This document shows, piece by piece, positions 17,136-42,468 of a stretch of 42,593 nt of DNA; position 1 is the first letter of the stretch; each line of letters begins with the position of its first letter. This stretch comes from Verrucomicrobiales bacterium (GTDB taxonomy: Bacteria; Verrucomicrobiota; Verrucomicrobiia; Limisphaerales; UBA11320). The position numbers were made by a program, and so were the translations under genes. The stretch is taken from positions 1 to 42,593 of the forward strand of contig JAEUHE010000125.1 of the NCBI GenBank assembly GCA_016793885.1, in the 5' to 3' direction. A model generated the notes under the pieces. The model saw only the letters and a program-made list of their open reading frames with translations. It was not told the DNA's origin and searched no databases.

Positions 17136-17225
17136 GCTGTGAGCCCCACCGATCAAGGGCTGCTGGACTTCCCCCTAAACTCCCCCCCATGACCAATCCG
17201 ATGAACGTACGTTCAGGGGATTTGT
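17136..17225 (+). repeat. Diverged repeat unit (R0) at the 5' end of the PaaX-like gene
   Basis: CGATGAACGTACGTTCA at 17199-17215 is identical to the core of the array repeats downstream. Upstream of it the order AGCCCCACCG, ATCA, a C-rich stretch and ACTCCCCCC parallels the inter-repeat sequence of the array (AGCCCCATCG, ATCA, C-rich, ACTCCCCCC). The flanking stem differs from the array copies but still pairs: CCAATCC on the left against GGATTTG on the right, 6 of 7 positions. The gene start codon (17189) lies within this unit. Confidence 0.7.
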
Positions 17226-18064
17226 ACTGGCTCGTTGGCAAGGTCGTAGTTAGTCTAGGCCTTCCAATGAGGCCAAGGACCAAGGAGTTGCTGTATCTAA
17301 TGCTATGGACTTTCGAGACGCTATCGCGTCCGAGTTTTCGCAATATCGGTGAGTCGTTTGAAGGATGGGCTTACCGAAGAGGGTTCCTTGGACGACTCCA
17401 GGAGTTGGAAGCCATGAAGTTTGTCGAGCGGCGAGACGTCGGTCTAAAGAGGATGTTCCGGCTTACGGAGAGCGGCAGACTCCATGCGCTGGGCGGCTCC
17501 GATCCAGAATCACAATGGAACAGGCCTTGGGATGGGAAATGGCGGCTGGTCATCTTTGATGTTCCCAATGAGCACACTCGACTCAGGAATCGTTTCCGAG
17601 CGCAACTCCGGCGGGCAGGCTATGGGTGGCTGCAGAACAGCGTTTGGGTTAGCCCGGATCGACCGTCCATCGATCGGACCATTCTGAAACTGACCGAGGC
17701 TGATGTCGAATCACTCGTGCTTCTGGAGGCCACCCCCATCGCCGGGGAGTCGAACTCAGACATCGTGAGTGGTGCCTGGAATTTTTCCCTTATTAACCAG
17801 CGCTACGAGAGTCATGGGAACATCCTGGCCCAAAAGCCCACAATCGCCGATCGAGAGCCGACCTCTGCGGGGAGGCTGCTTGAATGGGCTAGGCAAGAAC
17901 TAGCGGCCTGGGAGGCGGTGATGGAGGTGGATCCATTGCTGCCGAGAGTACTGTTACCCGCCGACTATCGAGGTATGGAAGCCTGGGGCAAAAGAAAGCA
18001 AGTCATGGGTGAAGTCGGTGCACTGCTACGTGAGCTTCCACCGAAGTCCCTACCAACTCGATGA
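17189..18064 (+). CDS. PaaX-family protein with Cas2-like domain, nested between palindromic repeats
   Basis: 291 residues from ATG 17189; an ATG at 17201 is the alternative. An N-terminal winged-helix region (about 30-100) includes KELLYLMLWTF and MFRLTESGRLHAL. The middle Cas2-like ferredoxin-fold domain (about 115-185) carries KWRLVIFDVP with Asp124 at the end of the first strand, and LQNSVWVSP. The C-terminal PaaX part (about 190-265) has GAWNFSLINQRY and DPLLPRVLLPADYRG. Classical PaaX represses phenylacetate degradation, but no such genes are present here. The gene begins in one copy of a palindrome and its stop codon lies in the next copy. Third codon positions look more A/T-rich than in kdp genes, suggesting transfer. 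It may be an autoregulator or a Cas2-like nuclease acting on the repeats; neither is proven. Confidence 0.85.
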   Translation: MTNPMNVRSGDLYWLVGKVVVSLGLPMRPRTKELLYLMLWTFETLSRPSFRNIGESFEGWAYRRGFLGRLQELEAMKFVERRDVGLKRMFRLTESGRLHALGGSDPESQWNRPWDGKWRLVIFDVPNEHTRLRNRFRAQLRRAGYGWLQNSVWVSPDRPSIDRTILKLTEADVESLVLLEATPIAGESNSDIVSGAWNFSLINQRYESHGNILAQKPTIADREPTSAGRLLEWARQELAAWEAVMEVDPLLPRVLLPADYRGMEAWGKRKQVMGEVGALLRELPPKSLPTR

Positions 18065-18359
18065 ACGTACGTTCACTCAGTTGGTACAGGTGAGCGAAAC
18101 CCAGGGGCACTGCACTACCGGCCCACAAACCGCTAAGTTCACCAGCCCCATCGCTGATCATATCCCCGTCCACTCCCCCCTACCAACTCGATGAACGTAC
18201 GTTCACTCGGTTGGTACAGGTGAGCGAAACCCAGGGGCATTGCACTACCGGCCCAAAAACCCACTAAGTTCACCAGCCCCATCGCTGATCATATCCCCGT
18301 CCACCCCCCTCCCCCCTACCAACTCGATGAACGTACGTTCACTCAGTTGGTAGGGGGGA
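18051..18359 (+). repeat. Array of three 36-base palindromic repeats with near-identical spacers
   Basis: Repeats R1 (18051-18086), R2 (18181-18216) and R3 (18317-18352) each have arms TACCAACT and AGTTGGTA around a perfect 14-base palindrome TGAACGTACGTTCA. R2 has one G in place of A next to the right arm, allowing a G-T pair. Intervening segments are 94 and 100 bases and nearly the same sequence, so this is a tandem array of units of about 130-136 bases. At R3 the arms extend to TCCCCCCTACCAACT and its exact complement (18310-18359). R1 contains the stop codon of the PaaX-like gene. It is not a CRISPR in the usual sense because the spacers are not unique. Confidence 0.93.
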
Positions 18360-29915: not shown

Positions 29916-30180
29916 ATGGAGTTCCTGCTTCAGCAGGTCGGGCACGCCATCTCACTTTGAGGCCGCCTCCGCCTAAAGGCGGAACTCCGTACCCAGGACG
30001 AAGCCTTCGGGGCATGGAGTTCCTGCTTTAGCAGGTCGGGCACGCCATCTCACTTTGAGGCCGCCTCCGCCTAAAGGCGGAACTCCGTACCAAGGACGAA
30101 GCCTTCGGGGCATGGAGTTCCTGCTTTAGCAGGTCGGGCGCGCGATCTCACCTTCAGGCCGCCTCCGCCTAAAGGCGGAC
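29916..30180 (+). repeat. Three tandem copies of a 98-base hairpin-rich repeat
   Basis: Copies start at 29916, 30014 and 30112 (period exactly 98); the third stops at about 30180. Each holds CCTGCTT(T/C)AGCAGG, TCCGCC/GGCGGA around TAAA, and an outer pair GGAGTTCC/GGAACTCC. The copies are nearly identical except for a few substitutions, so the duplication is recent. The array lies between the convergent SDR and pyruvate oxidoreductase genes. Confidence 0.92.
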
Positions 30181-42062: not shown

Positions 42063-42135
42063 GCGGAAAGCATAGCGGCGGTAGGAGCCAAGTAAAGTCA
42101 GGTTCGGACGGGGGGAAAGGGCGTGAGACCTTCTT

Positions 42136-42468
42136 GGAGTGCTGTAGCCCTCTACAGCTTTTCGGTCACCCCCGGAGGGGATCCCAGCTCCGCTGGGGAG
42201 ACCAAAGCGGCAGAGGGCTGCCGCACTCCATATGTCTCCCCTTCCTCGCGCAGCGTTTGGAGTGCTGTAGCCCTCTACAGCTTTTCGGTCACCCCCGGAG
42301 GGGGAACCCCAGCTCCGCTGGGGAGACCAAAGCGGCAGAGGCCTGCCGCACTCCATATCGCTACCGTCCCCCGCGCAGCGTTTGGAGTGCTGTAGCCCTC
42401 TACAGCTTTTCGCCACCCCCGGAGGGGGAACCCCAGCTCCGCTGGGGAGACCAAAGCGGCAGAGGGCT
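42136..42468 (+). repeat. Three tandem copies of a hairpin repeat of about 123-125 bases
   Basis: Copies begin at 42136, 42259 and 42384. In the first two, the ends are inverted: GGAGTGCTGTAGCCCTCT pairs with AGAGGGCTGCCGCACTCC at 16 of 18 positions in copy 1 (42136-42229). An inner GCTTT/AAAGC and a CCCCGGAGG-rich loop lie between. Copy 3 stops at about 42468 and lacks the outer arm. Short linkers of about 29 bases separate copies. Confidence 0.9.

Follow-up and report, generated by a model that had tools for sequence, protein, structure and literature searches.

REP elements have so far been tied to a single protein family, the RAYTs (TnpA_REP), which are HUH Y1 transposases. In REP/REPIN-RAYT systems, the gene lies between palindromes that are dispersed intergenically, and protein and repeat co-diverge. 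In REPINs, palindromes are paired into doublets of constant period (71 bp in P. fluorescens GI), and the spacers drift while the palindromes stay conserved (PMC3116915, PMC8266576). PaaX, the phenylacetate repressor, and Cas2, a subunit of CRISPR adaptation whose origin is debated, are structural relatives of the protein described here.

Our analysis produced a gene family whose members are accompanied by matched palindromes that co-diverge with the gene, are dispersed through the genome, and enclose the gene in a discrete unit. We consider it likely (probability ~0.72) that this unit is a compact gene-repeat element that resembles REP/RAYT pairs but is run by an unrelated Cas2-fold protein, and that is so far known from Verrucomicrobiota. 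Binding, cleavage and mobility inside cells are inferences rather than demonstrated properties.

The element was recognized in a 42,593-nucleotide stretch of DNA from a Verrucomicrobiales bacterium, termed the window. Searching the window for the 14-mer TGAACGTACGTTCA gave cores with zero mismatches at 17202, 18062, 18192 and 18328, and five matches when up to three mismatches were allowed, a count reached by none of 100 dinucleotide shuffles. Each perfect core is the centre of a longer imperfect palindrome (for example, TACCAACTCGATGAACGTACGTTCACTCAGTTGGTA). The four palindromes, to which no strand is assigned, are R0 (17191-17226, core 17202-17215), which lies upstream of the gene and has partly decayed outer arms; R1 (18051-18086, core 18062-18075); R2 (18181-18216, core 18192-18205); and R3 (18313-18356, core 18328-18341), the best hairpin among the window copies. 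R1 and R3 fold as single-stranded DNA far better than do shuffled sequences (z of -3.4 and -7.6, respectively). R1, R2 and R3 form a local tandem array (18048-18352) of 2.3 copies with a period of 130, whose spacers are 92% alike; among the spacers beside the other genome copies examined, no match to the R1-R2 and R2-R3 spacers was found except themselves. A chance origin of the palindromes is rejected on the basis of shuffles of the window and by controls at homologue loci. Membership in a curated RNA family is also rejected; all Rfam matches are far under gathering scores, and nearly all are of the miRNA type, that is, generic hairpins.

The PaaX-like gene occupies 17267-18064 on the forward strand. 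The original prediction, made from sequence alone, placed the gene between R0 and R1, with R2 and R3 following, and put its stop codon inside the next copy. Both claims held, and the stop codon TGA (18062-18064) falls within R1. The accompanying claim that the gene starts within R0 probably fails. The open reading frame begins at 17189 and encodes 291 amino acids, but homology begins at residue 26 or 27 in most homologues, which open with M/V-K/Q-P-K-T-E-E. Therefore, the true start is likely 17267, ~50 bp past R0, and the protein has 265 amino acids counted from Met27. The predicted absence of phenylacetate genes held for the main window open reading frames examined (the kdp operon, PFOR, a TonB receptor, DHH and others), a subset only, in which no paa genes were found.

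The window protein matches PaaX_M with an E-value of 1.9e-18 and 67 bits, versus a gathering score of 24, which satisfies the criterion for the PaaX superfamily. All 55 family members examined match PaaX_M at E 0.001 or better. The score against TIGR02277, the PaaX equivalog model, is 66.2 bits, far under the curated cut-off of 264.55 bits, and this criterion is not met. An AlphaFold2 model (pLDDT 88) has the three-domain architecture of PaaX: a winged helix (~1-78, numbered from Met27), a Cas2-like domain (~89-168) and a helical C-terminal domain (PaaX_C). The closest solved structures are Rv0674 (Z 14.6) and E. coli PaaX (Z 14.0), followed by Cas2 proteins (Z 8-9); VapD is also among the fold neighbours. 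Unlike Cas2, the protein carries the added winged helix and PaaX_C.

The Cas2 ferredoxin fold had been predicted, with an Asp (Asp124 of the 291-residue reading) at the end of its first strand. This claim held: in the model, the strand spans residues 92-98 and ends in Asp98, which is the same residue counted from Met27. In a MAFFT alignment, this Cas2-type Asp is invariant in 55 of 55 members and is missing from all 13 PaaX-type controls. D98, R107, L114, G120, Q123 and S125, which we take to be the Cas2 signature positions, are likewise invariant in the 55 members. Tyr234, in a DPLLP..LLP..Y motif, is also invariant, whereas all 13 PaaX-type controls have Trp at this position; Tyr234 is possibly a functional residue. 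Thus, the middle domain has the fold, signature residues and Asp expected of Cas2, but nuclease activity is inferred, and catalysis by the Asp is proposed only by analogy, without cleavage data. Metal-dependent nuclease activity is itself disputed for many Cas2 proteins. A Pfam search of the 55 members found no known transposase domain and, in particular, no match to Y1_Tnp (PF01797, the HUH Y1 tyrosine transposase), and the invariant columns contain no His. Assignment to a phage or plasmid is rejected: there is no PHROG match, no relative on viral contigs, and only two weak plasmid matches.

Homologues were found in 12 of 58 genomes of the same order. Most full-length homologues from these genomes sit between palindromes of their own; L010 and the distant L021 are not clear cases. 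A wider scan of 84,980 species genomes yielded 80 loci that were kept, all from Verrucomicrobiota groups (including a Methylacidiphilum MAG and Kiritimatiellae) or from bacteria without a named group. Among the 78 testable loci, a strong palindrome (score of 8 or more) is present just upstream of the gene in 73%, just downstream in 71%, and on both sides in 60%. By comparison, two-sided palindromes occur in 1.8% of 272 control windows and in 2% of dinucleotide shuffles. The gene-repeat layout seen in the window is thus shared by homologues with their own palindromes. About 40% of loci fall under the two-sided threshold, several of them owing to decay or contig ends. The spacing is narrow, with a palindrome-to-palindrome distance of 804-952 (median 862), and the upstream palindrome is centred at -53 relative to the Met (median), similar to the ~50 bp between R0 and the window gene.

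The palindromes are specific to their genes. Core identity between the two flanking palindromes is 92% within a locus and ~53% between loci, with a permutation maximum of 63%, and at 42 of 50 loci the own downstream palindrome is not bettered by that of any other locus. Palindrome similarity follows protein similarity (Mantel r 0.66; reached in 0 of 2000 permutations). A rough reading of the family core is TGTNNCRNNYGNNACA. No matched palindrome pair was found at 13 PaaX-type loci (E. coli K-12 and 12 plasmid-borne loci), which have single hairpins at most; in this respect, too, the family differs from PaaX. The genome of the window (G000) holds a second PaaX-like gene (L017; L044 on G000:C233), 53% identical to the first, that carries a different palindrome, GATTATTCCATACGTACGTATGGAATAATC. 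Nine copies of GATTATTCCATACGTACGTATGGAATAATC are present in that genome.

Dispersal also follows the gene. The 8.7-Mb genome of the window contains 31 copies of TGAACGTACGTTCA on ~20 contigs, versus 0 for a reversed-pattern control, and none of 57 relatives, four congeners among them, has it. All 31 copies lie outside genes, as predicted around them with a simple purpose-made codon-usage gene finder, although coding sequence makes up 73% of what was examined. Among copies with two known neighbouring genes, 12 are between convergent, 11 between codirectional and two between divergent genes. Across three repeat sets, copies between divergent genes number 2 of 25, 1 of 38 and 1 of 17, many copies lie between convergent genes, and copies are often downstream of genes. 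The outer arms vary among copies of TGAACGTACGTTCA. Compensatory changes fill 30 cells versus 15.8 in column shuffles, and the covariation score of the arms is 0.147 versus 0.091 for shuffles (0/500); every measure drops when pairing partners are slid. However, this test ignores kinship among the copies, and pairs and pair types are not clearly above shuffles.

Other palindromes behave similarly. TTTGTYGCATATGCRACAAA has 70 copies in one genome (G046; 75 in a looser search) and 14 in another (G029), both of which have genes that carry TTTGTYGCATATGCRACAAA, and it is absent from most other genomes. In the six genomes with a gene of the TGATGCGVBCGCATCA type, copies of this palindrome number 12, 9, 5, 2, 11 and 10; elsewhere, a single copy occurs in one of the other 15 genomes. 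Dispersal of a CATATG-type palindrome likewise follows its own gene in the same genome set, with two exceptions. The main exception is the G041 genome (L229-L238), in which 23 dispersed copies of TTTGTCGCATATGCGACAAA are found inside a longer, partly conserved element, and no PaaX_M gene was detected in this 96%-complete assembly. These copies are likely orphaned repeats, comparable to orphaned REPs.

The arrangement of copies in G046 is similar to that of REPINs. Twenty-one palindrome pairs are exactly 76 bp apart, and other pairs are 119-121 bp apart. The 40-bp spacers of the doublets have a mean best identity of 0.50 versus 0.29 for shuffles, and hence are homologous despite their unlike appearance. 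Therefore, a palindrome-spacer-palindrome unit of ~112 bp appears to have been copied to many places in this genome, after which the spacers drifted and the palindromes remained near-perfect. The REPINs with the 71-bp period noted above have the same conservation pattern (PMC3116915).

The gene-bearing unit also appears to be mobile. In pairs of species that share ~78-90% identity across the gene DNA, BLAST homology is limited to palindrome-gene-palindrome, with flanks compared up to 2.9 kb. In 12 of 20 such pairs the alignment begins no more than 6 bp from the upstream palindrome's outer edge, in 10 of 20 it stops no more than 9 bp from that of the downstream palindrome, and in none does it extend more than 22 bp past the unit. 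Six key pairs were re-examined on both strands. Homology across genomes that stops at element edges, with unrelated flanks, meets the criterion for a mobile element. Moreover, one genome (G032) has two copies of the unit, 84.5% identical over 763 bp, at unrelated sites. It is very likely that the unit moves on an evolutionary scale, by a mechanism that is not established. In one clade, the unit is found near the same gene, which we take from its translation to be ubiD-like, at a varying distance and once on the opposite side (L068 5460-6476; L082, L075, L071, L023, L087); thus, spread seems to have been partly vertical.

Two related genomes, G058 and G062, have several palindromes at orthologous sites, one copy that is half-deleted, and two synteny breaks at palindromes. 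No clean empty site was found in this single genome pair, and no target-site duplication was noticed, by eye, at the ends of the unit. In the same pair, G062 has a stretch of ~1.25 kb with an ATPase-like gene that G058 lacks, the difference falling precisely at the left edge of a palindrome shared by both at orthologous sites (L211/L220), and a clean 88-bp length difference (L213 2094-2181) is unconnected with any palindrome. The two G032 proteins (L008, L019) are alike N-terminally and unlike C-terminally, such that members look mosaic. Several genomes (L014, L015, L016) contain decayed C-terminal fragments whose DNA is ~85-95% identical to intact genes elsewhere.

The original prediction offered two readings of the locus. 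A REP-RAYT-like mobile or repeat-processing element is strongly supported by the matched palindromes, the dispersal of each palindrome with its cognate gene, and the homology limited to the unit. A self-regulating operator array fits poorly, although it is possible that the upstream copy additionally serves to autoregulate the gene. The prediction would have been refuted by homologues lacking palindromes or by palindromes unconnected to the gene; it was not, the 23 copies without a gene in G041 aside. Excision of the gene by recombination between R0 and R1, which was also proposed, was neither seen nor excluded.

None of the known systems compared here accommodates all of these features. Unlike RAYTs, the protein has the PaaX/Cas2 fold, and unlike REPs, the inspected repeats have no constant GTAG tag (judged by eye, with no formal motif test), while the family palindromes are ~30-40 bp and many are perfect. 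The repeats of G046 resemble CRISPR in being palindromic with spacers of constant length. However, the spacers are homologous rather than unrelated captured pieces, and mostly only one or two repeats are present. Searches of G000 and G046, both draft assemblies, recovered no Cas1, so integration of the CRISPR type is apparently not required; many other carriers do have Cas1. A CRISPR array is rejected on the grounds of the spacers and these two carriers. As with insertion sequences and their MITEs, there is a unit with repeats at both ends and there are dispersed copies without the gene, but here each end is a complete palindrome, and neither a known transposase domain nor a target-site duplication was seen. 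Because the pairing of protein and repeat belongs to no family tested, we regard it as a new category whose logic is convergent with REP/RAYT. On a stricter view, it might be called a variant of the REP kind.

In the mechanism we propose, a unit of ~860 bp, consisting of palindrome, gene and palindrome, encodes a winged-helix, Cas2-fold and PaaX_C protein that would recognize its own palindrome. The winged helix, a Cas2-like dimer, or both may bind the palindrome, either as a site with two-fold symmetry or in extruded-hairpin form. Once bound, the protein is predicted to nick or transfer strands there, with the invariant Asp124 (291-residue reading) and possibly the family-specific Tyr as candidate residues, and so would catalyse or assist copying of the palindrome. 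This activity may spread or maintain palindromes and, rarely, the whole unit. Binding of the upstream copy probably also represses the gene, an inference for which there are no binding data. Counting against this reading are the lack of binding, cleavage or transposition data, the G041 copies without a gene, the lack of a clean empty site or a noticed target-site duplication, the ~40% of loci under the two-sided threshold, and the partly vertical spread. A bolder version holds that the Cas2 fold is itself a recombinase or nickase, independent of Cas1, whose cutting and copying of the cognate palindrome spreads REPIN-like repeats and, from time to time, the gene that encodes it. We put this forward tentatively, with the balance slightly against it. 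If true, it would define a transposase class unrelated to HUH, DDE, tyrosine and serine enzymes, and could bear on a mobile ancestry of Cas2.

The best surviving alternative, though an unlikely one, is an autoregulator with a regulon, in which a PaaX-type repressor uses the flanking copies as operators and controls other genes through the dispersed ones. Membership in the PaaX family, the winged helix and the position of the upstream palindrome relative to the start favour this explanation, as does the behaviour of E. coli PaaX, which recognizes an inverted repeat and acts as a repressor of the promoter of its own gene (PMC9493321). However, copies are few between divergent genes and many between convergent ones, a matched copy lies downstream of the gene too, the doublets have a copied non-palindromic spacer in common, DNA homology is confined to the unit, and the 13 PaaX-type loci lack matched pairs. 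An ordinary PaaX regulon is rejected by the TIGR02277 score, the copy positions, and the Asp and Tyr differences.

An RNA-level system, in which a Cas2/VapD-like RNase binds or cuts the palindromes in the form of RNA hairpins (as processing sites, terminators or antitoxin RNA), is very unlikely. The Cas2 and VapD fold neighbours, the strong hairpins, the many copies downstream of genes and some excess of compensatory changes speak for it. Yet alone it leaves unexplained the copying of doublets to many sites and the mobile unit, and perfect palindromes are equally suited to two-fold DNA symmetry. It is also very unlikely that the palindromes are ordinary REPs moved by a RAYT or other transposase with the PaaX-like gene as a passenger between two of them: Y1_Tnp genes do occur in nine of 10 genomes tested, but there are many different palindromes, each matched to and co-diverging with its own PaaX-like gene, the inspected repeats lack a GTAG tag, and of the three Y1_Tnp loci in G046, the two that were checked are without such a palindrome, on which ground a RAYT source is rejected.

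A Cas2-fold family unrelated to RAYTs seems to have arrived at the same kind of partnership between gene and repeat, and its many independent palindrome specificities are readable directly from genome sequence. A protein that cuts its own palindrome would represent a new class of DNA-mobilizing enzyme and would bear on how Cas2 arose. Either way, the label of PaaX-family transcriptional regulator, which many Verrucomicrobiota genes are likely to bear in annotations, is probably a misnomer for them. A search of the open-access literature found no paper that links PaaX to Cas2 in the context of palindromes or transposition, and none that links it to REP, REPIN or RAYT, which is weak evidence of absence. 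Elsewhere in the window, two further tandem arrays with inverted repeats are present (29916-30179, 98 bp x 2.7; 42134-42465, 125 bp x 2.7), which might represent other REP-like families.
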